NCBI GenBank assembly: GCA_026770585.1
Contig: MU647229.1
Coordinates: 20,344-47,149 of the forward strand
Direction of reading: 5' to 3'
From: Baffinella frigidus
Lineage: Eukaryota; Cryptophyceae; Cryptomonadales; Baffinellaceae
Length of the DNA: 26,806 bases
The position numbers and the translations under genes were made by a program. The notes under the pieces were generated by a model. It ran no database searches. It was given only the letters and a program-made list of their open reading frames with translations, and was not told where the DNA came from. Positions 58-26,806 of this stretch are shown here, piece after piece (positions within the stretch are counted from its first letter, which is position 1; each line of letters opens with the position of its first letter).

Positions 58-163
58 CTGGTAGCGGCGGCAGCGTCCGGATCCTTCGCGCCCGCCTCCT
101 CGCCGTCCGGGTCCGCCGACGGGCCCGCCTCGGGGAACACCGCGGTCGCCGCTGGCTCCTCGC
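58..163 (-). CDS. Exon 54: acidic Ala/Pro/Glu linker
   Basis: 106 nt, phase 1 to 2; the last exon in the window. [18 protein letters not shown] then Ala-rich. Acceptor TTCAG|G, donor ACCAG|GTTACGAGCC. The next exon lies beyond position 1. Confidence 0.78.
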
Positions 164-3100
164 CTGAATGGTAGAAAAAGGGCTCAAAGAGACGCGGACG
201 CGAATCAGGTTCCATCCAGGGTCTCGCAGTAGTGTCCGAATCGTCCGGGGGTGAAGGGCCCGCCTCGGGAAACACCGCGATCGTCGCTGGCCTCTCACCT
301 GGAACGAGAGAAATGGCTCAAATGACTGGTGGGAGAAAAGGCTCCAAAAGAGGGCCAGACTTCCAGAGGCGGGCCCGCCTCGGGAGAAACCACGGGCGCC
401 GCTGGCTCCTCGCCTGCGTTGTGGGAGAAAGGGCTCAAATTACGGACGGGATAAAGGGCTCCTGCTTGGAGCGCTAGTGGGTACCGTGCACCGGAAAACA
501 GCCACTTCACGAGAAAACAGCCACTTTACGCACCGAGGACCGGGGGGCGCGCACGGCGTGGGGAGTGAGTGAGAGAGACATATAGAGGGAGAGAGAAGGA
601 TATTACCCAGGGCCGGGGGTGCGCCGGGCGTGGAAACGGCCGGGGTCGGAGGGGATGAGTTCGGTAGCAGAGGCGACTCGAGCGCGGCCATCGAGAGAGG
701 TAGAGGTAGAGGTAGAGATAGAGGGAGAGAGAGATTGAGAGAGAGAGAGAGATAGAGGGAGGGAGAGAGAGACACACACGGACACACAGACACAGAAACA
801 CACAGAAACACACAAGACACACAGGATGGGAGATGTACCTAGGGCCGGGGGCGCGCCGGGCGTCGATACAGCCGGAGTTGGCGGGGATGAGTTCGGCAGC
901 AGCGGCGACTCGAGCGCGGCCATCGAGATCACGTTCGCCGAGTCGCCGACGAGCGCCGACGACCGGATGTTCCTGGATAGGCGAACGCGCGTTTGTGAGT
1001 GTGTTTGTTAGTGTGTGTTGGATGAACGTGTGGGGTGTGTTGGATACGCGTGCGGGTGTGCTGGACACGTTATGGGAGTGTTGGGGACACTCGTGTGGGG
1101 GGTGTTGGGCACACGTGCGGGGTGTGCTTGGCACACGTGTGGGGTTTAGGATTTAGGGTTTATGGTTTATGGTTCATGATTTATGGTTGATGATTTATGG
1201 TTTATGGTGTATGGTTTATGGTGTATGGTTTATGGTTTATGGTTGAGGGTTTGAGGTCGAGGATTTGGGCGCACCTCGGGTGTTTCCGGCGCTCCGACGC
1301 CTTCTCATTCAGGAACGCCACCTAGGGTTCGGCGTTTGAGGTTTAGGGTTTAGGGTTTCTGGTTCAGGGTTTAGGGTTTATGGTTTATGGTGTAGGGTTA
1401 AGGGCTTCGGGTTTTGGGTTCTGGATTTCGGGTTTCGGGTTTCTGGTTCAGGGTTTCGGGATTCGGGTTTCGGGTTTATGGTGTAGGGGTTGCACCAGGT
1501 GCGTGTCGAGCTCCTCGGGCCAGTTCGGGTTGTCGTACCCCCCGTCCGCCAGCGCGTCTGCGAAACGACGCGTTTTCGTGTCAGCAAGCAAGCAAACAGG
1601 CGCGGCTTCAGTGTGTCGAATACGAATGCAGTGTGTTCAACACGCGCGTCTGTCAACAGGTGCGGTTTCGCGTCAGTACGCGTGCGAACAGGTGCGTTTT
1701 CGGGGTAAAAACGCCAACACACACGCGTCGTGTGTCGAACACACATGCGGCGGCCGGGGCTCGGGTTTCTGAAAGTGCTGCCCACCGAGACAAAAGTCGA
1801 GAGTGAAACGTCTCAAAGCAAACATGGAACCTCCGTTAACTCAAGTAACGGTGGATTACCGGCTGCGGCGACGCGCTCCTCCCCGCTGGAGGCAGACGTG
1901 CTCCCGCCTGCGATCGAGAGCTCGCCCCCCGCGGCCCCGCCCACCTGAGTGCGGTTAGGGTTTAGGGTTTAGGGATTAGGGTTTGGGATTGGGTGATTGG
2001 GGATTGGGGATTGGGGATTGGGGTTTAGGGTTTAGGGTTTAGGGTTTAGGGTTTAGGGTTCAGGGTTTAGGGTTTAGGGTTTAGGGTTTAGGGTTTAGGG
2101 TTTAGGGTTTAGGTTTTGGGATTTATTGTTTATGGTTTGGGGGTTAGGGACAGCATCAGTGCTTCTGCCTGACGTCTTAGGGTTTACATTAGGGTTCAGG
2201 GTACCGCGAAGTGTAGCAGCGAGGGGAGCCCCTCCACGATACGTTCGAGCACCTGCGTTCGGTTTGGGGTTTGGGGTTTGGGGTTGGTGGATATGGGGTT
2301 TAGGGCTCAGGGTTTTAGTTGGGGGTTCAGTTAGAGTTTGTTAGAGGTTACCACTTCAGGATTTGGTCAGGGTGTAGTGAGGGATTATGGTTCAGGGGGG
2401 AGGCTCCTCCGTACCGTGGAGGATTCAGGGGTTGAAGGTTATCGTAGAGCGCCACGCGCCGGCGCCCGAGGGGGGTTGGGGGGGCACTCACAGGATTGTT
2501 TTGTCTAGATGCAATTGACAATTCGGTTGGACACAATCCACACAACGGGCTACAAAGGGAGTTTCGGGCACTCAGTGACCGATTTTCCGTTACCTTATCC
2601 GAAGGAACCCCCCTATGCCCCTATGGGTTGCCTACCGTAGGTTCCTAGGTAGTATCGCTTAAATAAGGTTTATTCAAAAGCCCTTCGAAGTCCTCTGTGT
2701 GGGAAGACAATACTCAATATGTTTCACCTGTACCGGAGGGGTACACACAGGATGTTTCTGACCAGATACAATTAACAATTCTGTTGGGACACGATGTCCA
2801 CAATACTCGATATATTTCCCACACAATATTCGATATATTTCCATGTATTTCGATATATATTCTGTACCGTGGAGCGCCACGCGCCGGCGCCCGAGGGGGG
2901 TGGCGTCGTCGCGGATGCCTCTCCTCCCGCCGGGGTGGGCGTTGTCGACTCCGCGACCCACCGCGAGACTGAGAAGTGCAGGGTGCGCCTGAAACACGAT
3001 CAGTTCAGTATCAGGCTCGAGAGTGACACAGAGGGAGAAGCTTGAGAGAAAAGCGGCATCAGTAGCTCAAGGGCACCGCTCAATATTGCAGGGCAGAGTG

Positions 3101-6100
3101 CTGAGGCTAGGGCAGGAGAAAGATGAGGGATACCTGGACATGTCGACGTGGACGCCGACCCTGTCGCCGCGCTTGAACTTCGCGAGCCCGTGCCCCCCCT
3201 TCCAGTCGCCGTCCACCTATTTTGGTGTTTGGTGTTTGGTACTTGGTGTCTGGTGTTTTGTGTTTGGGGTGTAGGGTTTAGGGTTTAGGGTGGTTTCGGG
3301 TTTCGGGTTTCGGGTTTCGGGTTTCGGGTTTCGGGTTTAGGGTTTAGGTCTGACCTTCAGGGTGCCTTCCGCGGCAAAGAAGCCGTACCCTGCAGTAAGG
3401 TTTAGGGTTCAAGGTTGAAGTGTAAAGTGGGTTGGTTACCAGGGTTCAGGGGCGAAGTGTCAAGTGGGTTCAGGGGCGAAGAGTCAAGTGGGGTGGGTAC
3501 CCCCGCGCTTGTTCCCGAGGTAGGTTTCGACATCCACGTCCGGGGCAGCGACGCCCACCAGGCACTGGTCCCGCCCGTGCACTTCGAACTCCATCACGTG
3601 CACCCCCTCGCTCGGGATCGGCGTCGTCATCAGCACCGTGGCCATGCCCGAGAACTCGACGTTGGTCCTGCTCGCATCCAGCGTCGCAGCCGCTCCGCAC
3701 CTTGTTTAGGGATTGGGGTTCAGGGGTTGGTGTTTCGGGTTTAGGGTTTAGGGTTTAGGGTTTCGGGTTTAGGGTTTTGGGTTTAGGATTTCGGGTTTGG
3801 GTTTGGGGTTTGGGTTTTGGTTTTTGGGTTTTTGGGTTTTTGGGGTTCGGGGTTTGGGGTTTGGGGTTTGGGGTTTGGGTTCTCGGGTTTCGGGTTTCGG
3901 GTTTCGGGTTTCACCGCGCCGCATCAAAGAGCGCCTCCACCCCCCCTCCTCCGCCCGAGCCCGGACCCCCCGCGGCCGACGTTACACCCCCGGTGGAACA
4001 GCCGCCGGATGAGGAGGGGGGGGGGGAGGAGGGAGGGGCTGGGGACGGGGCGCCGGGGAGGGGGGTTGATGGGTCGACAACACCGGAGGGGTTGGGTTCG
4101 ATCTCGGTCTTGAACCACCCGGGGAGCGGCTCCGAGGAGATGATTGAGTCGACCACCTGTTTGAGGGTTTGATTTGGGTTCATGCTTTGGCAGACTATTC
4201 CTAAGTTGACATGCTGGGTCCACGGTACAAACCCGTCAACCTTGGAGCAAAACGAGCCGCGTCTCAGCAAGTTGGTGAGCACCAATAGACTGCGAGAGAG
4301 AGATCTCGGTCTTGAACCACCCGGGGAGCGGCTCCGACTAAATGATTAAGCCACCTGCGTTCAGGGTTTGATTGGAGCTATTGGAGCTTTAATGAACGTT
4401 ATACAGCAGCACGCACGCTCCCATATCCGCATCCGGATCGAAACGCCGTGGTGAGCACAGCCGCGGGAGACGTGACGGGCCTTTAGGGTTCATGGTTTGA
4501 CCATCAAGGGTCCAGGTTCAGGATTTGACTAGAGTTCAGGGGTTGACCAGGGTTCAGAATTTGACCAGGGTTCAGGGTTTGATCAGGGTTCAGGGTTCAG
4601 GGTGTGGAATTTAGACCTGGAAGCACTTGATGTAGCGGTCGAGCCACTTGGGAATGTCCAACCGCGACCAGGGCGGCTCCTGCTGCCTGATCGTCTCCAT
4701 CCGCTTCATCTGGTTTACGGGGAATGCGGTTGGGCAACAACAAATAATCATTTGTATTGCGACTCGGCCACTTTTGGAGAGAATGCGTAGAGAATGCGTA
4801 GAAAGAGTTGACTTTGAGTTTCGATGGACGTTCGCCAGGAGCACGACCACTTCAACAGCTGACGATTCTGATACAGCAGCTGACGATTCTGATACAGAAA
4901 CCGCTTCATCACGGGAGGGGGGTTACCAGGAGGTGGCGCGGGATGCGGTCGGCCCAGCGCTGCTCCGCGTCCAGCACTGTCTCGTTCTATCCGGTCTCAC
5001 CAAACTCACCAAACTGACCAAACTGGTGAGATCGGGCTCTTTTTCGCGCTACCGTTGACATATTTGTACCGCCCACCCAACATCGTCAAGTTAACAACAG
5101 TCCGCGAGCCTGAATGAGACAGAGCCAGAACGTTGGGAGGGGGGTTACCAGGAGGTGGCGGGGGATGCGGTCGGCCCAGCGCTGCTCGGCGTCCAGCGGC
5201 TCGATGCGATACTTCGCCTGCGGACAACGAACCCGGTTATATCCATATATTCCGAAAAGGCGTCCATCTATAGGATTTCCGGTATACACCCGGGTATCTA
5301 AAACTGTAAAAGTACGAAATGGCTCCAACGCCACGCCGAAATGTGAGATGGAATCGAGGAGGTGGCGCGGGATGCGATCGGCCCAGCGCTGCTCCGCGTC
5401 CAACGGCTCGATGCGATACTTTCTCTGCGGAGGGATTGGCGTTGCGGGTTTGAGGCTGAGGGGGGTTCAGAGTTTCGGGTAGCTCGAAAATGTAAAGCGT
5501 TAAGCACGGAGAGTGTGTCTTGGCACTCGACGGGGCGTACCTTGAGGTGAGTGACGGCTAAGCCACCGAGAACCGGTTAGGATATCTCTAGGAACAACCC
5601 TATGTCCCTACGGACTGCCTACCGTAGGGTCCTACAGATTATCCATTATGGGTTATTCACGAGATCCCTTAGTACCTTGAGGTGAAGGGCGATGCGCGTG
5701 ACAGCGGTCTCGGCGAGCGGGCGGTCGTACACCAGGATCGCCGCCAGGTCGCCCTGTCCACGCCAGGACACAAGCGGGGATGTCAGAATGCGACGTTTCG
5801 CTTCGTGGTACTGAACGAGTGTGCGCTTTGCAGTGAAACGCCGCTCCTCGTGCTTTCCACGTCCGGGCTTTTACCGGATTCCGAAAAACCCGGTATTAAA
5901 TTAGGTCCCCCTCAGGGGGTGCCCGGTTTCGGGTATCAGGTTTCGGCTTTCGGCTTTCGGGTTTAGGGTTTAGGGGGGAGGCTCCGGCATAAAACAACCC
6001 ATGTCTGACATAGCATCAACGTGGAACTGATTCAATGATCTTCCGAGAAGAGGTCCAGACCGTGTGTAAAGTTCTGTAGCGTTTAAAAGTGTTGGAAAAT

Positions 6101-9100
6101 GGCTCCAAGGATGAAAGTGGCGCGGGGTCGTTTTGTAATGAGACCTTGCACTTGTTGGAGCCCAACACTCCAACAAGTGCAAGGTCTCATATAAACAAAT
6201 GACTCCAATGCGAAGGTAGTTTTATAATGAGACCTTGAGCTTGGTGCCCAGTTTCGGGTATCACGTTCCGGGTTCCGGGTCAGACCTTGCACTTGTTGGA
6301 CCCCAACACTCCAACAAGTGCAAGGTCTCATGTTTAAAACTGGCTCAAGGTGGTTAAAAAAGGCTCAAGGAAGGTGGTTTTATGATGAGACCTTGCACTT
6401 GTTGGACCCCCGGCGCGTCCCGAAGAGGTGCAGGTGCTCCACTGGGACCTGTTGAGGGTGTGCGGTTTGGGGTTTTGGGTTTTGGGTTTTGGGTTTAGGG
6501 GTTTAGGGTTTAGGGTTTAGGGTTTAGGGTTTAGGGTTTAGGGTTTGGGGTTTAGGGATTAGGGTTTAAGGTTTAGGGTTTGGGGTTTGGGGTTTAGGGT
6601 TTAGGGTTCAGGAGGGTTTAGGGTTTAGGGTTTGGGGTTTGGGGTTTCGGGTTTGGGGTTTGGGGTTTGGGGTTTAGGGTTCAAGAGGGTTTCGGGTTTA
6701 GGGTTTCGGGTTTCGGGTTTCGGACCTTGTCTTCTGCCGCCTGGAGCACCACAACCTGTTCGAGCGAAAAGCGATTAATAATACGATTGTAAAGCACGGA
6801 TTAAAACAATTTTGCAAAACACAGAGTTCAAAAACGTTTTATTGTGAAGCACACACTTGAAAACGCCTGTAAAGCACAGAGTTGCGAGGGGGGGGGCTCG
6901 TAACCTGCCAGGTTCCGTCGAGGAATCCATCGTCTGGCACAAGCCCTTCCGTCGAGCCCTCCTCCGATCTGATACAGGGGGTAGGGGGTAGGGGTTAGAG
7001 GGGTCAGGGTTCAGCACGCAACTTGCCACGCCAGATTGATCGAGGGAAACCGACACCTTATCCACGCCAGATCTGGCGTCCTTGACTCAAGAATTCAAGG
7101 TCTTTCCCCTTAAATATGTCAAAAGTGGATGTTTCGATCCCTCTGGCGTGGTGAGCTCCCCGATGTGGTACAGGGGTTACTCGAAAGTACGGACACTTTC
7201 GAGCACCGCCATAGGGTTCTACCGTAACCCAATGCCGGAAGCATGTGCTAGCACACATGACACACTCAAGTGTGTGCTAGACACAAGAATACCCGCGCTA
7301 GAACACAATAATGCCTGTGCGAGTGCTAGACACACCAACGCATGTGCTAGACACACGAAAGATTGAGATAAAACACCGATTCGTGTGTTAGACACACTAA
7401 AACGGCTGTTAGACACACTACACCGGGTGTTAGACACACCTGGTGTCATCGGTCGGCTCCGGGGGCTCCAACGCGTCCTCGCCACGAACAAGCCGCGGCG
7501 TCGCGTCCTTCTAGAAACACCCGTCCGTGTGCTAGACACACCAGCGCACGTGCTAGACACACTAACACGTGCGCTAGCCACACTAAAGGATATGCTAAAA
7601 ACACCTGTTCGTGTGTTAGACACACTACACCGAGTGCTCGACACACCTGGTGTCATCGGTGGGCTCGGCGGGTTCCAACGCGTCCCCGCCACGAACAAGC
7701 CGCGGCGTCGCGTCCTTCGCGCCCAGGAGCCACACCTTCTCCCAGGCTGCTCCCACGGCGCGCTCGACCTGGGTTGGGGTTTGGGGTTTGGGGTTTGGGG
7801 TTTGGGGTTTGGGGTTTGGGGTTTGGGGTTTGGGTTTGGGGTTTGTTGTTTGTAGTTTGTGGTTTGTAGTTTGTGGTTTGTGGTGTATGGTTTGTGGTTT
7901 GTGGTTTGTGGTTTGTGGTTTGTGGTTTGGTGGTTGGGACGCAAAAAACGGTGGAGGGGGAGAGGGAGGGAGAGAGGGAGGGGGAGAGGGAGGGGGAGGG
8001 GGAGGGGGAGCAGGCTCTCGCGCCGAGAGAACGCGCGAGCAACAGAGCGTGGCCCGCACCTTCCCAGACGCCATGAGGCTCGCGCCCTCCACGACCCTTG
8101 GCCCCGCAGCGCGCGCCCCCGCCCCCGCCGCCGTCCCGCTGGGCCGCTCGGTTGGTTCGACCTGGCGTGGGGGTCGGGGTTTAGGGGTTTGGGGTGTGGG
8201 GTTTGGGGGTTGGGGGTTGGGGTCTAGAGGTTCGGGTTTGGGGTTTAGGGTTTTAGGTTTTGGGGTTTTGGGGTTTGGGGTTTGGGATTTGGGGTGTGGT
8301 GTTTTGGGTTTTGGGTTTTGGGTTTTGGGTTTTGGGTTTGGGGTTTTGGTGTTTGGTGTTTCGGGTTTTGGGTTTTGGGGTTTCGTGTTTGGGGTTCAAG
8401 GTATGGGGTTTGGAGTTTGGGGTTGAGGCGTGGGGATGACCGAGGGGATGCGGCGCGTCGCTTCGTCGGCCGCCGTTCTGGAGGGGGGGGTTTAGGGTTT
8501 AGGGTTTAGGGTTTAAGGTTTAGGGTTTAGGGTTTAGGGTTTAGGAATTATGGGTTATGGTGTGGTGTTCTGGGTGGGAGGGTTGGAGGTTTGGGGTGAG
8601 GGGTTTGGAGTTTGGGGTGAGGGGTGATACGGCCCGCCATTTGCGGCTTCAGTTTCCAGGTTTCAGGTCTTATGTTCCGGGTTGAGGGTTTGGGGTTCCG
8701 GGTTGAGGGTTTGGGGTGAGGGGTAGGGCACGTACGGCCCGGCATTCCCTGTGTCAGAGCCTGTCGTTGAGCCGTTCCAACGCGGCATAGCCTGCTTCGG
8801 GTTTAGGGTTTAAGGTTGGGTTAATACAGCAAGTTTGGGGTTGGGTTTTGTAAAGCAACTTGCGTGGCCTGGTTCGGCTTGGGGGTTCGGCCCGACCAAT
8901 CCATTTTCAATCCTTCAAAAATGCTCCATTTTCCAACGACAACCTGCCAACTAATCCATTTTCCAAACACACCACCACAATATGAGGGTTAGGGATTAGG
9001 GTGTCTAAAGGTCTAGTAATTATTTATGAAATATCTCTTGTAATCTCATACACGCAAAGGTCTCTAGTAATTAACTAAAGGTCTCTAACAATTCTTTCAA

Positions 9101-11974
9101 CGCCTCGAGAAATTCTTTAGAAATTAACTAAAGGACTTTAGCGATCGCGTTAACACACCTGGGCGCGGACAATGGAGAACATCTGTTCGCGCGCGAGCGA
9201 GAGGAGCCGCTCGTTCATCGCTCTCTCTTCCCGACTGCTCTCTAGTAATTCTGTTTTAAAAATCCCTAGTAATTACTCAAGGTCTATAGTGATATCTAGT
9301 AATATCTAGTAATTATTTACTAAAGGTCTCTAGTAATCTCATAAACCCAAAAAGGTCTCTAGTCATTACCCAGAGGTCTCTTCAGTAGAGTAATTATCTA
9401 CTAAAGATCTCTAGTAATTAGTGGCATCCCTAGTATTTTTTTGATCAAGGTCTCTAGCAATCTCGGTCTCTCCCGGCAACACACCTGGGTGCGGACGTTG
9501 GAGAACATCTGTTCGCGCGGGAGCGAGAGGAACCGCTCGTTCGCCGCCTCCCTCTCCCTCGATGCCCGCACCGGTGCTTCGCCAACTGATTGTTTGCGAG
9601 CGGGGTGTGTTAGGTTCACGCGCCTGGGATTCAGGATCAAGCGCGGAGAGGGGGGGGGAGCCTTGCGGGGTTTGGGGTTTGGGGTTTGGGGTTTGGGGTT
9701 TGGGGTTTGGGGTTTGGGGGTTGTTAGGGTTTAGGGTTTGGAGTTTAGAGGATAGGGTGAGGATTTAGGGATTGGGGTTTAGAGTTTAGGGTTGAAAGTA
9801 TAGTGTGTAGGTTTCGGCGGACGCACCAGCCCCACCGGCACCCGACACACCCCTCGCACCTCCCCCCCGCCCCGCGACATCCGCCTCACCCCGCCGCACC
9901 TGGTTGAGGGTTTAGGGTTTTGGGGTCTGGTGTTTGGGGTTTAAGGTTTTATGGTTTATGGTTTCAGGGTTTAGGGTTTACAGGTTTGGTGATTGTGGTT
10001 TGGGGTTTGGGGTTTGGGGTTCAGTGATTACGGTTTGGTGTTCTGAGTCGGGGGGTTGGAGGGTTTGGGGTTTGGGTGAGTGGTGAGGGGTGAGGGGTGA
10101 GGGGTGAGGGGTGAGGGGTTACCGGCGCCCCTCTCACGCTCCCGCGCGTTGAGTTTAGGGTTCAGGGTTTAGGGTTTGGGGTTTGAAGTTTAGGGTTTAG
10201 GGGTGAGCGTTTAGGCACCGGCGTCCCACTGCCGCTCCCGCGCGCTGTCAGCCCGGCCCGATCACTGCGCTGCCCCAGGGGGTCCGCCAGCGCCTGCGTT
10301 AGGGTTTGCGGTTGAGAGATTAGGGTGTGGTGTTTGGTGTTTGGTGTTTGGTGTTTGGTGTTTGGTGTTTGGGGTGTGGGGTTACGGGTTTGAGGTTTGG
10401 GGTATGGGGTGTAGGGTGCAGGGGTTAGGGGTGAGGATTTAAGGGTGTAGGGTGCCTGCGCGGCGCCCCCTGCAGCGTAGCGTCGCGTGGGGGTGTTCGA
10501 GGACGACCCCGCTGCCCCGGAGGGCTGCCGGGTCGGGTCGTCGCTCACCACGGACGCGGGGGCGGCCACGGAGGCGGGCGCGGGCGGGGAGGACGCCCCC
10601 CCGCCCTGGTTTTGGAGGAGTTCCTGGGTGGGGGTTTGGGGTTTGGTGTTTGGTGTTTGGTGTTTGGTGTTTGGTGTTTGGTGTTTGGTGTTTGGGGTTT
10701 AGGTTTAGGGTTTGGGGGTTAGGGTTTGAACCAGGCGGGCGCGGTCGCGGAGGGGTGCGGCTTCGGAGGGGGGGTTGCCTGGGGCGGGGTTTGGGGTTTG
10801 GGGTTTTGGGTTTGGGGTTTAGGGTTTGGGGTTTGGGGTTTTGGGTTTTGGATGTTGGTGTTTAGTGTTTAGAGTTTAGTGTTTAGTGTTTAGTGTTAAG
10901 TGTTTAGTGTTTAGTGTTGAGTGTCCAGGGTTTAGAGATGTACCGGCGACCGCCGGGCGGGCGCGGACGCTGGGGGGAGGGAGCCCCCCACCCCCCGAGG
11001 AGACGGAGGAGGGTGGAAGGGCGGTGCGTGAGGCGGCGTTAGGGTGGACGGTGGGGAGGGCGGGGGAGGGGGTGGGAGTGGGGTGGGCGAGGGAGGCGGC
11101 GACGGAGGTGGAGGATAGGGAGGACTCCCATGGGGGGAGGCGCGTTGGGCCGACGTCGAGGAGGCACTGGGGGGGTGGGTGGGGGGGTTAGGGTTTAGGA
11201 TTATCGTGACGAAAGTGAGGTGGGGTTTCGGTTTCGGTTTTTGGTTTTTGGGCTTCGGGTTCTGGGCTTCGGGGTTCGTTTCAAGGATTTAGGGCCAAAC
11301 CAAAGGATTTAGGGTTTGGGGTTAAATCAAAGGGTTTCGGATCTCAGGGTCAAATCCAAGCTGACAGGGTTTGGGTTCAAATCAAAGGGTTTAGGGTTTG
11401 GGGTTAAATCAAAGGGTTTGAGGCTGTACCTGGGAGTCTGACGTATTGTGGGTGCGCGAGGATCCATCTGTCGGCGGCGCCGCTCGCACCACCAGGAACA
11501 CTGAATCTCTCACCCCCAACCGAACACCCCTCAAACCCCCACACCCTCAACCCTCAAGGTGCAGCAGTAGGGCGAACACGCCAACGCTTTACACTTCATC
11601 CCGAAACCCGACGCCCGAAACGCGAAGGTGGGTAGGGTGTAGGTACCTGTGAGTCGGAGGCGTTGTGTGTGCGCGATGATCCAGCTGTCGGCGGCGCGGC
11701 ACGCACCACCAGGAAAACCGTGTGCACCTGGAGGGTTTAGGGTTGGGGATTTTGGGGGTGGTGTTCAGAGGGGTTTAGGGTTCCCTAAACCCTAACCAAG
11801 GTGTAGGGTTTAGGGTTTAGGGTTTAGGGTTTAGGGTTTAGGGTTCAGGGTTTAGGGTTTATGGTTTATGGTGTGGGTTTACCTTCACAGGTGCCGCGGT
11901 GCGGAATACGCCGTCCCGTCGAGGTGCAGATAACTAGTCGAAGCTGTACCCCCCTTTGTCGTTGCTCCGAAACG

Positions 11975-12006
<32 letters not shown>

Positions 12007-15000
12007 ACTGACTGTCTGTCTGTCTGTCTGCCTGCCTGCCTGACTGGCGGACAGACATACATACAGACAGACAGACTAACAGAAATACAGACATACATAC
12101 ATACATACATACAGACTGACTGACTGACAGACTGACAGATTGAGGGTTACCTTCACAGGTGCAGCGGTGCGCGGTCCCGTCCAGGTGCAGATAATCGAAG
12201 GAGCACCCCCCCCTGTCGATGCTCCGGAACGCCCACGACAACAGTAACCACTAGCCGTATGGTGACAATATAACCTCATGGCAGTTACTGTCAAGCAGCT
12301 TTAGTGTAAAGCAAAAGGGTATGATGAAGACACCTTTACGGGCGCAGCGGTGCGCAGGAGCGCCGTACCGTCGAGGTGCAAGTAGTCGAAGGAGCACCCC
12401 CCCTTGTCGTTGCTCCGGAACGCCCACGACGAGAGCCACTGGTCATGCCGCCACGACTCGGGTAGCGGATTGTACGCGTGCGAGGCCACTGCGCAGGGTG
12501 TCGGGGTTAGGGTTCAGTGTTCATTGTCTAGTGTTTATGGTTTCGGGATTAGGCTTTCGGGGTGACGGGTTAGGGTTCAGGATTAGGGTTTAGTGTTTAG
12601 GGTTGAGCGTTCAGGATTTGGGGGTTAGGGGGGGGGGGGTCGTAACCTGCTTCGATGGTCGATGGAGGTGGTTTGGTGTTCAGGGTTTAGGGGTTAGTGT
12701 TCAGGGGTCAGTGGGGGCTCGTCACCTGCTTCGATGGAGGTGCGGGGCGCGGCGCCGTCCTCTGGCACAGACGGCGCGGGCGAGGCTGCCGCTGTCGCCA
12801 TAGCGTCGCGTGCGTCCATCCACCTGCAGGAGGTGGAGTCAGAATCCATCCGGAAAATGCTCGTATGAGCGGCCGACACGGGGTACAGTGAGTGGCACAA
12901 TGCGTAGCATGTGCGGCGCTGACGCTGGTTGTTTGGCAATGAATTACCAATCTCTGTCCATCCACCTGCCGGGGTGTGGGGGTTAGAGCGCTGTGCAGAT
13001 ACGCTGGCCCCATAAATAATTAAAAATGGCAAATTTAACGGTGCTGGTACAAACTTGTCAGCTTTTACCATTATTCAATTATTTTCTGGGCCAACTTTTC
13101 TGCACACCGCTCTAGGGTTCGGAATTTCGGGATTGTAAGTTTGGGTTTGTCCACCTGAAACGGCATGCGGCGTCCCAGCAAGCCTGGCACAGGTCGAAGT
13201 CGCACTGCGGCCCGTTGCTTCTGTACCGCCGCCCTTGCCCCTGAAGTCAGGCGTTGGTGTTCAGAGTCTGAGGGTTCAGGATTCGCGTAGGTCATGGTTT
13301 CGGGTCTAGGGGGTTTGGTGGACCTGGGCGGTGCAACCATCGCAGGGTTTCGGGTTTTGGGTTCAGGGTTCAGGGTTCCGGGCTCAGAGTTTGCACACGT
13401 TGTGGTTCCGGGTCCAGGGTCTGAGGATTCAGGGTTTCAGGTTTAGGAGTGGTGGACCTGGGCCGTGCATCCGTCACACCTCCACTCATTCACGCGCAGC
13501 GTTTCGGGATCAGGATGGTAGAGTTTGGGATTGCACAAGTTATGGTTTCAGGTTCAGGGTTATCATCTAGGGGTGTAGGGCGACCTGGGCAGTGCAGCCG
13601 TCGCAGCACCACTCATTCGCGCGCAGCGTCAGCTCGATCGCTATACACGTTTCTACATAGTTACACATAGTTACACATATTTGTACATAGTTATACATAG
13701 TTATACACAGTTATACACAGTTATACACAGTTATACATAGTTATACACAGTTATACATAGTTAAACAGCATTATACATAGTTATACATAGTTATACAGCA
13801 TTATACATAGTTATACGCATTCATAAGGTCTGGCTGGACCTGGGCGGTGCAGCCGTCGCAGCGCCACTCATTCGCGCGCAGCGTGAGCTGGATCGGGTGT
13901 GGGTGGATGTTCGGGATCGTCTGCGGGCCCTGCCGGTCCGGCATGCCCAGCCCGGCCTCGGCGGCGAGCACCTGATTTCGGTTTCGAGGTTAGTCACCAC
14001 GTCCGTGCACAACACAGCCATGGACTGGTATCAGAAAACGAGTTGCCATGGACTTGTCTCAGAAAACGAGTTAATTAACGCCTTTTCCGCCGACGAAATT
14101 TACTACACGATTGCTGCTCTAGTAATAATATGATCCAGTTGTGAAGTAATTTTGGTCGGAAGGAAGGATATTCGGGATCGTCTGCGGGCCCTGCCGGTCG
14201 GTCCGGCATTCCCAGGCCTGCTTCTGCCGCGAGAGCCTGGTCGTTCGGGTTTGGGGCATAGGGTTTAGCGAGATTATAAGGCATGTTGTGCGCTTTATTA
14301 TAAGGTTTGTGGTGTGGTTTAGTATAAGGGTTGAGGTTTGGGGGTTGGGGTGGTTTGAAGTTTGGAGTTTGGGGTTTGGGGTTTGGGGTCTGGGGTTTGG
14401 GGTTTGGGGTTTGGGGTTTAGGGGTTTAGGGGTTTATAGGCAAGGTTTAGGGTTCAGGGTTCAGGGTTCAGGGTTCAGGGTTCAGGGTTCAGGGTTCAGG
14501 GTTGAGGGTTGAGGGTTTGGGGTTTACCAGGCCGGGGGTCGCGAGGGGCGGGAGCTCCGAGAGGTGCTTTTCGAGCACCGAAACCTGCGTTTTGGGTTGG
14601 GGTTTGGGAATGGGGGTTTGGAGTTGGGAGGTTTATGCTTCGGGTTGGTTCAGGGGATACGGGTTAGGGGTCGAGGTTTAAGGTGTGGGGGTATGGTTTA
14701 TGGTTAATGGTTTGGGGGTGAGGGTTTAAAAAGAAGAAGGGAGGGTCCCAGGGCTTACACGTTGTGGTCGAGCGTTCTTAATCCATGTAGGGAGCAGGGG
14801 TTCAGGGATCAGGGGTTATGGGGATGGGGGACCATCCCCCTACAAGCCCTGTGGCTGGTCACAGGGCTTTTAAGCAGGGGTTGAGCGTTGCACATCCATA
14901 CATGTGGGTCAGGGATCGGGTTATGGGGGACGTACTGAGTACTGGCCAGAACCAGGGATCAGGGTTACAAACGAGGAAGGAGGATCCTAGGGGTTGAAAG

Positions 15001-18000
15001 TAGGGGTCAGGAGGGACCATAGCGCGGGCGTCAGCCTTCTTGAGCGCCCCGACGCCTTCCACCGCCCCCGCGCCCCCAGACCTGGTGCAGTGTTTGGGAT
15101 TTAGAGTTTAGAGTTTCGGGTTTAGGGTTTGGGGGTTGCCCGTGTGCTTGCTGATGAAAGTGTATTGGCGGCGGTGGAGAGGGGTTTGGGGTTTGGGGTT
15201 TGGGGTTTAGGGTTTAGGGATTAGGGTTTAGGGTTTAGGGTTTACCCGGAGCGCGCAGCTTTCTATAACCGTTTCTATAACCGCCACATCAACGTGAAGC
15301 CTACCCTGAACAACAAACCTTGAAGGGGTTCAGAGTTTAAGGCGTAGGGATAAGAGTTCAAGGTGTAGGGTGTAGGGGATCTAGGGTTTGAGTGTTGGGG
15401 TTTAGGGATTAGCGGTTACCCGGAGCTCTGCGCAAAGGCGGCCTTGGCCAGCTGCAGCGCCCTGGTTTAGGGTTTAGGGTTTAGGGTTTAGGGTTTAGGG
15501 TTTAGGGTTTAGGGTTTAGGGTTTAGGGTTTAGGGTTTAGGATTTAGGGTTCATGGCTCTGGGTTGAAGGTTGGGGGTCTAGGGTTCAGGGTTTAGGGTT
15601 TAGGGTTTAGTGTTTAGTGTTTGGGGTTTGAACCCGGTGCCGCGGCGGTTCTGGTGGAGGGCGTTTGCTCCCAGGGAGAGGAGCTTTTCAACCTGGGATT
15701 AGGGTTGAGGGTTAGGGTTCAGTTCTAAAAAAGAGAACTGTTTAGGGTTCACGGGTGTAGGGTTTAGAGCGTGGGGTTGAGGGGTAAAGGTCGAGAGTTT
15801 GGGGGTTGGGGTTGAGGAGTTGGGGTTCGGGATTTGGAATTCTGGGGTGAGGAGTGAGGGGTCAGGGTTGAGACTTGAGGGTTGATGGTTGATGGTTTAG
15901 GGGTTAGGGTTGCGGGTTGAGGGGGTACCGTGGACTTGTGTCCGCGCGAAACGGCCCAGGCGAGCGGGTGGTTTCCGTCCCCGTCCTAGGTCAAGGGTTG
16001 GGGATTAGGGTTGAGGGCGTAGGGTTTAGGGTTGAGAGTTTGGGGTTGGGGTTTAGGGTTTAGGGTTTAGGGTTTAGGGTTTAGGGTTTAGGGTTTAGGG
16101 TGTGAGGGTTTAGGGTTTGGGGTTTGGGGTGTAGGGTTCAGGGTTTAGAGTTGAGGTCCCCATCCTGGGATTGCAGGTCCGAACCGCGTGCCAGCAAGGA
16201 GGTTCATCCACTCTCAACACATAACGCAGAGTCATGCACTCTTGACAGCTAGAGTGAGGCACTCGTGACAAATGGGATGCTCAGATGTATGACCTGGGAG
16301 TGGAGGTCTCTATACAGTTATGGAGTTACAGAGTTATATAGTTATACATAGTTATTCACAGTTGTACACAGTTATACATATTTATAAACAGTTATACACA
16401 GTCATACATATTTGCACACAATTATACACAGTTATGCACCTGGGAGTGGAGGTCTCCGCCGCGATCGAAAAGCAGCTGCACCAAGTCGTCGCGCGCGCCC
16501 CACGCCGCGTAGTGCAGCGCCGTGTGCGGGAGCGGAAACGCCTGCGCGGGCGCGGTTTAGGGTTCAGGCAGAAGGTGGGGGTTTGGGTGTGGGGTTTAGA
16601 GGTGAGGAGCGAGGTGGGGTGCGGTTTGCGGAGGGGAGACGCCTGGTTGGGGTGTGGAGTTTAGGGTTCAGGGTTTTTTAGGGTTTAGGGTTCAGGGTTT
16701 AGGGCTTAGGGTTTAGGGTTTAGGGGGGTGGGTTCAGAATTTGCACAGGTTATGGATGATATTAGGGCTTAGGGTTGAGGGTTTCCACCTGGACGAGGCG
16801 CTCCGGGCACGCGGTCCACACGCGCGCCCCCCGGCACAGGCACCACTGCACCTGTTGGGGTGAGGGTTTGGGGTTAAGCTTGAGGGTTTGAATCTGAGGC
16901 GTCGCGCTGTCAACACCAACACGCACCGGTTCGCGCGGTACCCCACACCAACACGCACCTGTTCGAGTGCTATCAACACCAATACGCACCGCCTCGCACC
17001 GTATCCACACCATCACGCACCTGCTCGAGGTTGCCCTGGAGCACCGCGCGGCAGAGCGCCGTCGCGGGTGCGCCGTCCACCTGGGTTTTGAGTGTTGGGT
17101 TTAGGGTTTGGGGTTTAGGGTTTGGGGTTTGGGGTTTGGGGTTTGGGGTTTGGGGTTTGGGGTTTGTGGTTTGGGGTTTGGGGTTTATGGGTCAGGGTTT
17201 GTGGGTTACCGCCTCCACAGCGCGCACCAGCTCTGCCCGCGACATCACCGCGATGTCCTGGAGGGGGAGTGTATGGAGTTAATGGGGCGGGTTTGGTTGG
17301 TTTGAAGGTAAGGGGTTTGAAGGTTGTAAGTTGGAAGGATTTCAAGATGTGCAGGGGTTTGAAGGCCGACAGCCTCCACTGCGCGCACCATTTCTGCCCG
17401 CGACATCACAACGATGTCCTGCCGGGGTGTTAGGGTTTTGGGTTTAGGGTTTAGGATTTCGGGTTTCGGGTTTCGGGTTTCAGGTTTAGGGTTTAGGGTT
17501 AAGGGTTTAGGGTTTAAGGTTCGAAACATGCAGGGGGCGGGGGTTAGGGTTCCGGGATCCAGGTTCCGGGTGTCGAATTCACGGTTTCGAGTTGACGGTT
17601 TTTAGGTTCCAAATTTCGTGTTCCGGGTTTCGTGTTCCGGGTTCCGTTTGTAGGGGGATACCTGGACGGAGCCGGCGTCGAGTGCGGCTACGACTGCTCC
17701 CCCCCCTAGGGTGTAGGGCTTATGCTTCCGGGTTTCGGGATCCGGGTGTAGGGTGTAGGGGGGTACCTGGACGGGGCCGGCGTCGAGCGCGGCGACGACC
17801 TCCACCAGGCACTGCAGCGCCGTCGAAAAGTGTACGCCTGGGTTGGGGGTTGATGGTTAGGGTATGAGGCTTGAGGTTTGGGGTCTGGGGTTAAGGCGGA
17901 AGGCGAGTTTGGTGAAAGGGTCTAGGGTTTAGGGTATAGGGTTTGGGGTTTAGGGTTTAGGGTTGAGGGTTGAGGGCTTACGCTGCGAGCCCACGAGGGG

Positions 18001-21000
18001 CAGCTCGGTCGCGTACCTGGTTGAGGGTCCAGGGTTCAGGGTTGAGCGTTGAGGGTTGGGGGGTTGAGGGTTTGGGGTTGAGGGTTGAGGGTTCGGGATT
18101 GAGGGTTTATACGGGGTTATAAGGGTCTATCAAGGTTTATATGGGTTCACAAAGAGTTTTAAATGGTCATTTAAAACTCTTGGGGACCCATATAAACCCA
18201 TATAAACCTTTTTGGGAACCCATATAAACCTTTTTTGATCGGGGTTGGGGTGTACTGGGCGACGGCAGCCTCGCGGAGCGCGTTTAGGTTTTAGGGTTTC
18301 GGATTTCTTGTTGAGGGTTTGGGGTCTCTGGTTTCTGGTTTCTGGTTTCTGTTTTCTGTTTTCTGGTTTCTGGTTTCGGGTTTTCGGGTGTGGGGTATAC
18401 TGGGCGACGGCAGCCTCGCGGAGCACGCGGAGCGCGCGGAGCGCCTTCGGAGACAGGTTCTTCACTACCTGTTTTTTTGGGGGGGAATTCAGGGGTTTTG
18501 GGCAGTAAAATGTGAGGGTTTTGAGTAAAATTTTACTCAGCCCCAAACCCCAACCCCCGCGTTCAGGTTTACGGTTTGGGGGTTGGGGTTTCGGATTCAG
18601 GGGTTAGGGTGTGGGGCTAGGGTTTATGGGGCGTACCGCAGCGCCCCAGCCGCGCACAGACGTCGCGAGCGCGGAGCGCACTGCCATGGTCGCCTCAAGG
18701 CACGCTTCGTATGGTTTCAACGGGGCGGGTTTCAAGGATTTCGTGGGTTTGCGGGGCGCCTCAGGTTTCAGGTTTCAGGTTTCGGGTGTCAGGGTAGGGC
18801 GTGTGGTGAAAACGGGGCGGGGGGTTGAAGGGTTTGAAAGGTTTATGGGGCGTACCGCAGCGCCCCAGCCGCGCACGGACGTAGCGAGCGCGCGCAGCAG
18901 CGCGGAGCGCAGCGCGGGGCGCACTGCCATGATCGCCTCGAGGCACGCTTCGGCCACTTCGAGGATTTGCGCCTCGACCCACGGGTTCGACTGCCCGCAG
19001 CGCACCAGGACGCCTGGGGTGGGGTGGGTGGGGTTGGTATTTAGGGTTGACGGTGTGGGTTGAAGGGTGTGGGTGCTGTGGTTGAGGCTTGGGGTTTGGG
19101 GGTAGAGTTCAGGATTGAGGATTCAAGGTTTAGGGTTCAGCCTCGACCCACGGGTTGGACTGCCCGCAGCGGACCAGGACGCCTAGTGTGAGGTTTGGGG
19201 TGCAGGGTTTAGGGTTTGGGGTTTAGTTTTTGTTCTTCATTGTGAAGGGTTTAGGGTTTAAGATTTAGGGTTTAGGGTTTCAGGTTTGGGGTTTGGGTTG
19301 AGGTGGGAGGTTTGGGTTCAGGGTTCAGGGTAATTGGGCAATCGTGCAATCGTGTATTTGTGTATCAGCAGGGTGCACGCAACGGTCGTGGGCGCGCACA
19401 GCGCCACCATGACCCACGTGCTAAAGGGTTCAGGGATTGGGGTTCAGGGATGAGGGTGTAGGGTCTGGGAGATTTGGGTATTTGGGTATTTGGGCTCAGG
19501 GTTCACCGGTCGTGGGCGCGCACAGCGCCACCATGACCCACGCGATGAAGTCCCCATCCGACGGCCCGACCTGGGTTAGGATTCAGGGTCAGCGGAGAGG
19601 GGCGGGGGATAGGGTTTGGTGTTTGATGTTGCGGTTTGGGGTTCAGGGTGTGGGGTATGAAGTTCAGGGTGTAGGGTTGTGGTCTCGGGTTTGGGTTTAG
19701 GGTTTAGGATCTCGGGTTTGGGTTTTACGGTTGAGAAGGGGTTAGAAGGGTTGAGCCGGGCTGCTGGTGTAGGATACAAACGCACTTTTTCTCGCATCGG
19801 GGTATCCCTTAAGTGACCAGTAGGCTCCTACGCCCTACCGCAGGGCCCTAGGACCTGCCTAGGGCGAGTTAGTGCGAATATTCACCCTTTGGTCACTTAA
19901 GGGATAGGGTTGAGACCGGGAGGAGCGGCTCCCCAGAAGGCGCCTTCCCGGCTGGGCCCGCCTCGGTTTCGGAGCCCTCGGGCGTGGCGGACGGCTGGAT
20001 GATCTCTGTCTTGAGGTTGAACTCGATGCGCCCCTGGTTGGGTTTTTGGGTTGAGGGTCTACAGCTCAGGGTGTGGGGATCAGGAATCAAGGTTAAGGGT
20101 TTAGCGTGGAGAGTATAGGGTCGAGATTTTCTGGTTTCTGGTTTCTGGTTTCTGGTTTAGAGTTCAGGGTTTAGGTTTCAGGGTTTAGGAATCTAGGGTT
20201 GAGGATTTAGGGTCTATTTATGCTTAGGGTTGATTTATGTTTAGGGTGTATGGGTTTAGGGTGTACCTGAGAGCCCGAAGCGACGGTCGGCGTCTTCCAA
20301 TCGAGTGTAAAGCGGCTCGTCCCGCGCAGCTCGACAGGCTTCCACGCCTGCGTTGGGGTTCGAAGTGCACGATTTAGAGCCTCGAAGAATACACGGGGGC
20401 GTTCCCGGGCTTTTCCAAGTTCCATTTTAGTGGGTTCCCGGATTGTCCACGGGGTTTCCGGGAAATGACTTGGAGCCATTGTTTTTTCAAAAGCGTCTCC
20501 CTGTCGAGTGTGAAGCGGCTCGCCTCCCGTAGCTCGACAGGTTTCCATGCCTGGATTTAGGGTTTGGGGTCAAATGGATTTATGGAGCCCGCGGGGGCAC
20601 TCCATAATGACCACACAAGACTCCCAAGACATAACTGTATGCACCGCGCCAGTCATCGCGCCAGCCCCGTTCGAACCGCGCATCAAATCAAATCAAATGA
20701 CAAGAGTAAAGCGGCTCGTCCCAGCTCGACAGGCAGCTCGACAGGTTTCCATGCCTGCCTTCGGGTTGTTCTTAAGTTGACATGCTTAAGAGTCCGCGGT
20801 GCACACCCATCAACGGGAACAACGTGACCAAACGCGATCATGTGTTTGACAATTACTACCCACCGCCCCACTTGTAAAGGAAGACGGGGTTTGAATATTC
20901 AAATTTCGAGCCTCGAGTGGAGGGGTAGGCACCTGGCCCTCTGGGAAGAGGTGCGTGGTTTCTGAGGCCGCCGCCAGACGGGCTATTCTTAAGTTAACAC

Positions 21001-24000
21001 GCCGAGTCCGCGGTACAAACCCGTCAATTTTGCAGGGGGAAAGCGCCGGGTCTTCCCAAATCGCTTCGCCCAAATAGACGGAGACGGAAGTAGGGGCTCG
21101 TAACCTGGCCCTCTGGGAAGAGGTGGGTGGTTCCCGAGGCGGTGATCTTGAGGCGGCCGCCGGACGGGCCCCCCTCGGGAGGGTCGGCGGGCGGCTCCTG
21201 CCGAAGAGGTGCGTTTAGGCGTCGTTTCGAGGTTATACAACGTTGTATACTGTTATATAACGTTTTATACTGTTATAAATGTTGTATAACGGTATACAAT
21301 GTTGTATACTGTTATACACCGTTGTTCACGTTGTTCTTACAACGTTGTTAACTGTGATTTTGAGGCAGCCGCCGGACGGGCCCCCCTGGGGAGGGTCGGC
21401 GGGCGGCTCCTGCCGAAGAGGTGCATTTTCAGCACGTTTCAGGGATGCGACAGTTATACAACGTTGTTTGACTGGGATTTTACAATGTTATTAACATTGT
21501 ATACTGCTATACAACGTTGTATACTACTATAAAACGTTGTTAAGTGTGAGCTTGAGGCGGCCGCCGGACGCCCCCCCCTCGGGAGGGTCGGCGGACGGCT
21601 CCTGCCGAAGTGTACATCGATAACAACGTTGTAAAACCAAGGTTAACAACGTTTTATCACCCCAAAACGAAGTCTGAACGCGCCCTTTTGGATGGATCTA
21701 CGGGCCGAGGGGGCAACTCGTTGTAGCGTCTGAAATTGACCATCAATTAATAGACCCAACTTATTGCATCTGCGGTGGTACCTGATTGAAGGACACGAGC
21801 AGCGACGCGTCGCCCGTATCGGGGAAGTCTCCATGCAGAGTGACGTCCAGCTTCCCGCGCGGTTATAAAGTTGTATACAGCGATACAACGTTGTCAACAT
21901 TATACACTATCATAAAACGTTGTTAGCGTGCCCAAACCGCACCGATTCGAGAAAAATGTACCTGGTTGAAGGACACGAGCAGCGACGCGTCGCCCGTGTC
22001 GGGGAAGTCTCCGTGCAGAGTGACGTCCAGCTTCCCGCGCGTACCGCGGGGGTAGGAGGGGAGTGACTCCATCGCGCAGAGGGGGACCTGCGGTTAGGGT
22101 TGAGGGATCAGAGTTTGGGGTTTGGGGTTTGGGGTTTGGGGTTTGAAGTTTGGGGCTTAGTAAGCGGTGGTAGGTAGTTCAGGGTTTAGGGTTAATGTTA
22201 CCTACTTTTCGAAAGGGACTGAGGGTAAAAATAAAGAAGAAAAAGAAGAAGAAGGTGTATGGTTCAGGGTTCGGGTTTTATGGATCGGGAAGTACAGTCA
22301 TGGGCTGCCCCTCCGCATCCAACGGCTCCACCACCATCCGGAAGCCCCACTCCCCGGGCGACCCGTCGGTTTCGAACTGAAGGATGAAGGAGCTTCCGCG
22401 GACCACGTTGTTCGCGCCCCTGGATTCGGGTTCAGGGTTCAGGGTTCAGGGTTTATGGTTTATGGTTTATGATTTATGGTTTCGGGTTTAGGATTTACAA
22501 GGGTTTAGGGGTTCAGAAGGGGTTAGACGGGGTTAGAGGGGTTTAGAAGGGCTTAGAAGGGTTCATGGTTTGTGGTTTCAGGGTTCGGATTTCGGCTTCA
22601 GGGTGTACCAGCCAGCGCCCGCCTGGCCGTGGAAGCACGCGACTACCCTCGAGAGCGAGGAGGTCCCGTGGCAGATCTGCAGCTTGTCTCTGTCGCGCTT
22701 CGTCGCGGATCGAGAGTCCATCGAGAAGCGAATGGATGAGGCGGTCGGAAGCCGCACCTGTTTAAATGTCAGGTTTTACGCTCGTGTCCCGGTTTGTACC
22801 GCGGTCGTTGTTTAAATGCCAGGTTTTACGCGCGTGTCCCGCACAAAAACCTTTAAAAGAGGTTACACACCTCTGAAAGAGGTTCTACACCTCTGCGCGT
22901 GTTCGGGGAGAAGTTGTGCTTGAACTCAGGGTTCCGGGGTTTGGGTTGCGGGTTTCGTGGGGCTCTGCGCCTCACGCAAATCCGAGATAGAATCTATTGG
23001 GTGCCGGGAAGCAGGGGCTCACCATGACGGCGATGCGCGTGTTCGGGGAGTAGTTGTGCTTCGACTCGAGCGCGATCGACGACACGCGCGCGAGCGCCGG
23101 AACACCAGGGGACACCTTCGCCTGTCAGGGGTCAGGGGTCAGGGGTTAGGGACCAGGGGTCAGGGTATTTGACAGGAAAGCGCAGCAATTCTCCCCCGTG
23201 ACGGGGAGGAGTTGTGTTTGGACTCGAGCGCGATCGACGACACGCGCGCGAGCGCGTGAACCCCGGGGGACACCTTCGCCTGTATTGAGGGTTTGGGATT
23301 TAGTGTTGAGCGGTTGGTGTTTAGTGTTTAGTGTTTAGTGTTGGGTGTTGAGTGTTGAGTGTTGGGTGTTGAGTGTTGGGTGTTGAGTGTTGGGTGTTGG
23401 GTGTTGAGTGTTGGGTGTTGAGTGTTGAGAGTTGGGTGTTGGGTGTTGAGTGTTGAGTGTGGAGTGTTGGGTGTTGGGTGTTGAGTGTTGGGTGTTGAGT
23501 GTTGATTGTTGGGTGTTGAGTGTTGAGTGTTGAGTGTTGAGTGTTGAGTGTTGAGTGTTGAGTGTTGAGTGTTGAGTGTTTAGGGTACTCAACACTCAAC
23601 TGAGTGCTGGTAGTGTTTCGGGTTTAGGGTGAAGGGGTTAGGAGAGGGCGATCGAGGACACGCGAGAGAGGGCCGGGACCCCAGGGGACACCTTCGCCTG
23701 GGGTCTTGGGGTTTGGGGGTTAGGGTTTCGGGTATTTGATAAGCAGGGTTTAGGGTTGAGGATTTGGGCTTTAGGGTTTAGGGTTTGGGGTTTAGGGTGT
23801 GAGGTTTAGGGTGTTGGGTATTTGGGTTCAGCGTTCAGGGTTTAGGGTTTAGGGTTAAGGGGTCAGGGTTCAGGGTTCAGGGTTTAGGGTTTAGGGTTTG
23901 GGGTCTTTGATAAAAATGGTTGAGGTTTGAGGGTATTTGATAAGAAGGCTTTAGGTCTAGGCGTATTTTTACCCGCCGTGTGGTGTATGGGCACTTTCAG

Positions 24001-24629
24001 GAGGGTTCAGGGTCTATGGTTGAGGGTATTTGCCACCTGGGCAGCGAGCGAGCGCAGCAGAAGACACGCGTGCTTGGTCAACTGCGCGACCGTGGTCGCC
24101 GAGAAGACGTCGGCCGGCCCGCCCTCCCCGTCGCCCGCCTCCGCGGCCTCGGCGCTGCCCCGGCGCATCTGCGACTCGAGCACCCCCTGCAGGCGCGGGC
24201 GCCAGAGCGCCATCGACAAGTCCGGGCGGATCGTGCGGAACAGTCGCCTGTTTTAGGGGTTGGGATTAGGGATTGGGGTTTGAGGTTTGGGGTTTGGGGT
24301 CAGGGGTTTGGGGTTTCGTCAACCACTAAACCGTTTGTGCATGGACAACGGTGTGGTCGTTCTCATCCTTAGGGTTCAGGGTTTAGAATGTACTCATCCT
24401 TTGGATTGAGGGTTTGGGGTGTGTGCCTGAGGAGGGTCGCGAGGGTCTCGACGTCGAGGGCCATGGGCGGAGGGGTCGAGCGCCCCGCCGCGGAGTGCAG
24501 CACCTGCAAAGCGATTGAAAATTTAATTAATAGATATGAACATTTTTAAATTATATATATATCGATGCATACATCTATCATATATATATATATATATATA
24601 TATATACTCACATACACACACACAAACAA

Positions 24630-24698
<69 letters not shown>

Positions 24699-26806: not shown

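Follow-up and report, generated by a model that had tools for sequence, protein, structure and literature searches.

The window analysed here is a stretch of 26.8 kb from a 156-kb contig of the eukaryotic assembly of Baffinella frigidus (382 Mb in 1,364 contigs), and it is spanned by a predicted gene on the minus strand (58..26299). The gene was modelled from DNA alone as a Viterbi path, by a basic gene finder for which clear exons served as the training set; seven of its exon calls corresponded to the partial exon copies described below and were taken out by hand, leaving 51 exons with 4,623 coding nt and a median exon length of 81 nt. Thirty-five of the 51 exons start in phase 0, and the 50 acceptors include 45 CAG and three TAG. 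The model penalises stops. Regarding the product, an ankyrin-repeat match (Pfam) was detected in two joined exons (16541-16440 and 15985-15929), and a SPRY-like stretch scores below the Pfam cut-off; no homologous proteins were found for a piece of 124 residues. A search of the genome for the RPB1 family gave no match, and short exons make such a search insensitive.

The introns of this gene are rich in TTTAGGG-like heptads throughout, for example at 15464-15629, and a heptad word is present in the last 60 nt of 27 of the 50 introns and in the first 60 nt of 22 of them; these intronic heptads may act as branch site and pyrimidine tract. A 40-copy array of the heptad AGTGTTG lies inside a single intron (23302-23580). 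In addition, nearly the same 10-12 nt (GTTACGAGCC..) open several introns or partial exon copies, i.e., at 18-27, 48-57, 6895-6904, 12637-12646, 12716-12725 and 21095-21104; with up to one mismatch this type of start has 7 matches in the window against 1.5 expected, and 2 of 100 shuffles gave as many.

A first-pass annotation claimed that the introns contain partial copies of the directly adjacent exons, referred to here as echoes. Comparison of the window with itself by self-BLAST and local alignment revealed, apart from the heptads, local direct repeats of 34-279 nt, mostly spaced by 100-300 nt. In a specific echo test, each exon end was aligned to its own neighbouring intron, and the threshold was set at 99.5% of a control of 4,418 comparisons with non-adjacent exons. 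A copy of the 3' end of the upstream exon (donor-side echo) was detected in 22 of the 50 introns and a copy of the 5' end of the downstream exon (acceptor-side echo) in 15, where about 0.25 are expected for each type from the control, and the claim is thus borne out. An echo of either type is present in 27 of the 50 introns and on 37 of the 100 intron sides, with alignment scores from 25 (the threshold) to 143; the top control score was 31, and five of the 37 matches are weak, with scores of 25-32 (acceptor side of introns 14, 28 and 31, donor side of introns 29 and 39). The median length of echo-bearing introns is 556 nt versus 208 nt for those without an echo (p 7e-8). Both types occur together in 10 introns, the donor type only in 12, the acceptor type only in five and none in 23 (odds ratio 3.8, p 0.06); this co-occurrence is a check of a single contiguous insertion of exon end, whole intron and next exon start from another allele, and it is confounded by intron length.

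The echoes are direct in orientation, ordered and adjoin their source exon; they are about 25-113 nt long and lie 105-576 nt from the exon or from the next copy. For the best-scoring copy on each intron side, the end of the upstream exon comes after the donor and a spacer, and the start of the downstream exon stands before a spacer and the acceptor. This side rule was examined on the 33 exons that measure 66 nt or more, using 30 nt from each end. The last 30 nt were found in the downstream intron for 18 of the 33 exons and in the upstream intron for 2, and the first 30 nt in the upstream intron for 11 and in the downstream intron for 3, that is, 29 exon ends on the expected side versus 5 on the wrong one, the latter being by eye mostly complete or nearly complete copies. 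The scale and regularity are unlike ordinary exon duplication, as had been suggested from the first inspection, which was also correct about the local origin of the copies. Tandem or mutually exclusive duplication would give complete copies with both splice sites and the frame kept; here far-side ends number 5 against 29, no more than 6 among 20 gaps have a length divisible by 3, and two exon copies, at 24735-24826 and 17369-17427, are whole or almost whole. Five inverted pairs are present in the filtered self-comparison list, at 6138-6406 (around exon 6448-6392) and at 21259-21660. At 6126-6410, the donor end of exon 6448-6392 is repeated in both orientations, direct and inverted, and these copies are hairpin-forming.

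Following the gene from its 5' end, the echoes are distributed as follows, all on the minus strand and recovered by both self-comparison and the echo test, except where only one method is named. Exon 26299-26240 has a donor-side echo at 26045..26093, with the donor GT lost, and exon 25729-25619 an acceptor-side echo at 25843..25934. Exon 25246-25142 is echoed on both sides, at 25360..25464 (acceptor) and 24936..24972 (donor; echo test), and the complete or nearly complete copy of exon 24503-24427 in its upstream intron (24735..24826) has an in-frame gap of 3 nt. Exon 23121-23023 has a distal (23644..23725; self-comparison) and a proximal (23202..23283) acceptor-side echo, as well as a donor-side echo of its inner part (22894..22927). 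The donor-side echo of exon 22087-21962 (21778..21861; self-comparison) comprises 84 nt that match 21958-22041 with 3 differences, all synonymous in frame. The two acceptor-side echoes of exon 21197-21105 (distal 21546..21610 and proximal 21354..21418, both by self-comparison) share their inner boundary, the proximal one being repeated as a unit with intron flank; the donor-side echo of this exon (20931..20968) may by eye reach 20982, where a dispersed element begins. Exon 20347-20267 has acceptor-side echoes at 20703..20767 (self-comparison), with 8 extra nt that break the frame, and at 20493..20553. The donor-side echo of exon 19570-19507 (19354..19426) has lost its donor GT, and exon 19013-18856 has an acceptor-side echo at 19140..19216 and a donor-side echo at 18621..18709 with three in-frame gaps (12, 6 and 6 nt). 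Donor-side echoes of exons 18468-18401 and 17837-17767 lie at 18239..18282 and at 17621..17694 (self-comparison), the latter sharing its intron flank, and the copy of exon 17257-17210 (17369..17427) has both splice dinucleotides by eye.

In the 3' half of the gene, exon 13971-13840 has an acceptor-side echo at 14166..14251, with gaps of 2 and 4 nt, and a graded series of donor-side echoes, as the first-pass annotation had described for this exon, its exon 27; the series was recovered at 13582..13640, 13453..13502 (self-comparison) and about 13320..13344 (sequence comparison). Two donor-side echoes of exon 12488-12334 came from self-comparison, one at 12144..12239 with 8 nt missing, and a second at 11876..11976 with a stop in the exon's frame as well as two gaps (4 and 1 nt). 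Exon 11727-11647 has a donor-side echo at 11426..11501; that of exon 9553-9485 (9155..9231) belongs to a unit repeated with intron flank, and the donor half of exon 7768-7631 is repeated in tandem together with its intron flank at 7314..7511, with an offset of 206 nt (self-comparison). Exon 5217-5149 has an acceptor-side echo (5357..5431, matching 5150-5224) that lacks only the donor end, and a donor-side echo (4913..4975; self-comparison) that has two synonymous states in common with the upstream one. The acceptor-side echo of exon 4156-4119 (4302..4373) includes 36 nt (4302-4337) identical to 4100-4135. Three more complete the set: a donor-side echo of exon 2988-2868 at 2440..2476, with the donor lost by eye and transposon-like DNA in between, a donor-side echo of exon 972-839 at 604..696, for which 9 of 9 in-frame differences are synonymous, and an acceptor-side echo of exon 163-58 at 370..439. 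The examples 21778-21861, 4302-4337 and 5355-5424 (here 5357-5431), singled out from the start, were all recovered by self-BLAST and local alignment.

It had also been stated that most copies start at a splice site. The site itself is indeed retained, since 29 of 31 pairs still have the splice dinucleotide when four coordinates are shifted by eye (25 of 31 by script alone, i.e., 13 of 17 and 12 of 14), and such retention is also expected from neutral drift at this echo age; an exact stop at the site was not upheld, because similarity often continues past it, by eye mostly for 0-45 nt, and then fades in the intron. A shared intron flank was detected in 4 of 31 pairs by a control-based script, or 5 of 31 with pair 9540/9213 added by hand, which is what plain tandem duplication predicts for those pairs. 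Units repeated together with intron flank are 7718-7520/7511-7314, 9558-9305/9231-9012 and 21610-21354/21418-21142 in the window, and 2305-2402/2504-2607 in locus L012 of another contig. On the other hand, three donor-side pairs that are about 96% alike (22041/21861, 5197/4975 and 18427/18282) have only 2-15 nt of intron in common beyond the GT.

The 33 spacers, of 31-388 nt, are a mix of heptads, microsatellites, AT-rich repeats, a dispersed element and transposon-like pieces, and by eye they are mostly unrelated to each other. The dispersed element measures about 55 nt, has ends resembling CTTAAGTTGAC and in some cases directly adjoins the truncated edge of an echo (partly by eye); it is found in the window at 4205-4231, 20993-21019, about 20769 and about 5060 (by eye), in L033 at 591-643 and 1002-1054, and in L012 at about 6977 (by eye). 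Elements with terminal inverted repeats (CACACAGCGG.. and CACACGGTGG..) were also seen by eye between or inside echoes, at 8152-8318 in L012, about 640-780 in L031 (reverse complement), and about 2500-2700 and 5590-5640 in the window (by eye).

Another aspect of the echoes is the way in which they differ from their exons. Coding counts were made on 32 hand-trimmed pairs of the window with frames fixed by the peptide, and 31 of these (23067/22927 left out) entered the flank and G/C tests; pairs 462/345, 439/188, 2901/2476, 2802/2542, 7646/7562, 10247/10151 and 17029/16967, those around 6126-6410, AT-rich pairs near 13650-13800 and echo-echo pairs were set aside. In the exon's frame 119 differences are synonymous and 60 nonsynonymous (dS 0.32, dN 0.048, dN/dS 0.15), which deviates from the nonsynonymous share of 0.586 expected for echoes neutral from birth (p 1e-11), and a single stop is present in 586 codons. 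A frame-free test points in the same direction, the largest-phase sum being 137 of 203 differences, where 106 are expected and the maximum of 5,000 simulations was 127. A copy that was non-coding from birth should give a ratio of four-fold to zero-fold differences of at most about 2; the observed ratio is 4.8 (bootstrap 3.3-7.0), and 3.7 (2.6-5.6) for G/C sites only. At non-CpG sites it is 2.4 (1.4-4.5), not clearly above 2, which counts against a derivation from coding sequence. In six exons with several echoes, the states common to the echoes and absent from the exon are 10 synonymous and 0 nonsynonymous, and those of a single echo are 33 and 21; some of these may be changes in the exon itself.

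Other features of the divergence are those of non-coding DNA. Only 6 of the 20 echo gaps are multiples of 3 and 14 break the frame, and exon G/C with echo A/T outnumbers the reverse both at degenerate (61 vs 25) and at zero-fold sites (31 vs 13). The pairs with a shared flank show 11 synonymous and 15 nonsynonymous differences versus 107 and 43 for the flankless ones (p 0.006 with 9540/9213 moved by hand; 10:12 vs 108:46, p 0.029, before moving it), a split that was made post hoc. On the assumption of equal rates, the divergence divides roughly into about 0.05 changes per site accumulated while non-coding and, before that, about 0.1 at each silent site. Gene-conversion mosaics with short tracts were considered and rejected, given that no clustering of third-position differences was detected in 29 pairs (20 of the window and 9 others; p 0.13).

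The first-pass annotation also proposed a search for the same pattern elsewhere in the genome, and this search was positive: comparable copies are present on C350, C4, C6 and C7, four contigs other than that of the window. In L012, one exon is followed by five donor-side half copies, and there are more series besides. Six independent loci were read, i.e., L028, L029, L030-L032 (as one), L033, L034 and L035, the last two in part. Echoes are present in L028, where one exon has eight extra copies, in L031 and in L034; L029 has one weak pair and a tandem repeat, L033 has local repeats that may involve exons, and the part of L035 that was read has no echoes. In L031, copies on the acceptor side keep the acceptor and lie upstream of the exon, and those on the donor side lie downstream. 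The donor start CAG|GTTACGAGCCCC, of a type present in the window gene and equal to the above intron opening with CAG before it and CC after it, has 164 occurrences in the genome against 0 for its reversed form; among 100 of the 164 places listed there are 15 neighbouring pairs on the same strand spaced by 87-439 nt and one more at 1,051 nt, and no opposite-strand pairs within 1,500 nt. With respect to divergence, 13 echo stretches of L028 and L031 repeat the pattern of the window (42 synonymous vs 15 nonsynonymous, p 2.5e-8), and the G/C decay bias is absent from them (24 vs 22). In contrast, 19 stretches of L012 have 37 synonymous and 60 nonsynonymous differences, as for neutral copies (p 0.83), which counts against a general coding-like divergence. 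Two L031 echoes, near 603-815 and 1031-1102, seemingly have the same truncated boundary and differ by about 4 synonymous and 1 nonsynonymous changes (by eye), which hints that constraint may have continued once they were truncated, although the explanation favoured below does not require this.

The position of the echoes, their order, direct orientation and retained splice site, the recurrence on other contigs and the intron flank included in some units are direct observations, and among the causes put forward at first, template switching or local tandem duplication fits them best, the copies being direct, ordered and next to their source, some as units with intron flank. Slippage between heptad tracts finds no support as a general cause, as one breakpoint lies within the exon and many spacers by eye contain AT-rich repeats, microsatellites or dispersed elements instead of heptads. 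In the explanation that we prefer, short local duplications would be very frequent. Copying would jump back, the exon and the adjoining intron each containing one of the two breakpoints; successive copies are spaced by roughly 100-310 nt. Two forms would result: either the exon is followed by a spacer and then by its own 3' portion including the donor, or the acceptor and the 5' portion of the exon come first, followed by a spacer and the exon itself. Candidate molecular steps are staggered breaks that are filled in and joined, or strand-annealing repair. A half-exon without a second splice site would be skipped by the spliceosome under exon definition, and selection would remove whole-exon copies and cuts within exons; because of this selection nearly only half-exons would remain, and the introns would lengthen with them. 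The synonymous excess suggests that most copies originated from functional sequence that was already unlike today's exon, and the simplest addition would be allele exchange. In a highly polymorphic species, homologues would exchange sequence, and a diverged functional allele of the exon in question would either have supplied most copies or have overwritten them afterwards; from then on they would decay freely. The flank-sharing minority would be plain tandem duplications of the same molecule. Judging from the sequence comparisons, the chances that local jump-back duplications were tolerated as half-exons, most of them from or overwritten by diverged alleles, appear evenly balanced.

The alternative that survives best, although we regard it as rather unlikely, is that all echoes are plain tandem duplications within one molecule, neutral from birth and with no part for other alleles, the synonymous excess being due to faster silent mutation in exons than in introns. 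The units repeated with intron flank, the neutral ratios of the flank-sharing pairs (11:15) and of L012 (37:60), and the indels free of frame constraint agree with it. Nevertheless, this would require silent sites of exons to outpace echoes by a factor of about 4.6 in the window and 8 in L028/L031, whereas the rates in L012 are equal; the three donor-side pairs of about 96% similarity with only 2-15 nt of common intron beyond the GT do not fit.

Quite unlikely is an error of assembly or consensus, also raised at the outset, by which pieces of divergent haplotypes, strains or cryptic species were strung in a row. A collapsed mosaic of this kind would be expected to show coding-like differences, unalignable intron flanks and, as found for two pieces of the window, no second assembly place among the best-scoring candidates; the missing G/C decay bias in L028/L031 also agrees with it. 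The recurrence on four contigs and the eight extra copies of one L028 exon, which would need about nine haplotypes, tend to argue against it, and so do the 14 of 20 gaps that break the frame while the exon model, with its penalty on stops, reads through 4.6 kb, the one-sided G/C decay in the window, and the transposon-like elements seen by eye at or inside echoes; the lack of a second place among the best candidates was also counted against it. A mosaic of only two haplotypes was rejected as the sole cause on the grounds of copy number and gaps.

It is decidedly unlikely that the echoes are in use, with selection on the protein maintaining them as alternative exons or as ones that are partly redundant. 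The dN/dS of 0.15, the single stop in 586 codons and the seven echoes called as exons by the gene finder are in accordance with such a use; however, the second splice site is weak, and three of the five donor-side echoes that were called need AAG or GAG as acceptor, versus the 45 CAG and 3 TAG in the 50 acceptors of the gene. Moreover, gap lengths show no regard for the frame (6 of 20 divisible by 3), a stop and frame-breaking gaps occur in the echoes of exon 12488-12334, and L012 is neutral. Finally, insertions of small mobile elements or introner-like introns, which would be the spacers with the echoes as long target-site duplications, are improbable, in spite of the dispersed element in several spacers and the terminal-inverted-repeat elements seen by eye between or inside echoes in L012 and L031, given that most of the 33 spacers look mutually unrelated by eye and that target-site duplications of 35-110 nt fall outside the usual range of DNA transposons.

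Duplications that span a single exon-intron boundary are already known. One such case is a tandem duplication in an RdRp gene of potato, which took in the 3' side of an intron and the 5' side of the exon after it (Ma, Lan and Niu 2016, PMC4974935); the event is a local duplication across the boundary that includes branch site, polypyrimidine tract and acceptor, as in the acceptor-side echoes. However, it was one event in one gene and made a new spliced intron, whereas here 37 of 100 intron sides (five weak) and both types of boundary are involved and the copies are apparently silent. The nearest described process is the repair-mediated proximal duplication of vertebrates, in which short copies (mean 162 bp for those within 5 kb), ascribed to break repair, occasionally include exons and splice sites (Pace et al. 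2009, PMC2671141). Echoes are likewise short copies with the source within a few kb; nevertheless, they are direct, ordered, adjoin their source and occupy about half of the introns, while only 4 of 824 human donors in that report were partial exon/intron and an inserted exon can be inverted. Fill-in at break ends with 3' overhangs produces small direct tandem duplications in human and mouse cells (PMC8355091) and would be one possible chemistry, in an experimental system whose abstract contains neither the exon pattern nor the coding-like divergence. When an exon segment with AGGT is duplicated, an intron can be gained, and in this way too intron sequence arises beside exons from exon duplication (reviewed in PMC3443670); there, the intron lies between two AGGT copies, whereas here the copies are inside the intron behind a spacer, with their own donor or acceptor. 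No description of boundary-spanning copies in about half of a gene's introns, with a strict side rule and recurrence across contigs, was found in searches of a collection of open-access papers; it is the density of the echoes, the two-sided rule and the coding-like divergence that set this case apart.

Echoes mislead gene finders into exon calls, seven of them in this gene. Should the preferred explanation be true, the echoes would represent datable steps of intron growth, both new introns and false gene predictions would be likely to arise from them, and they would offer a natural experiment on exon definition, in which many half-exons with good splice sites should be ignored. They would perhaps also be a record of past alleles. 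In its strongest form, which we hold as doubtful, the introns would be an archive of other alleles, into which half-exons were repeatedly written from the homologous chromosome, or overwritten by it; on the same tentative footing, each intron would store several versions of its own exon ends that were once functional, and nothing but the requirement of exon definition for two splice sites would keep these versions silent.
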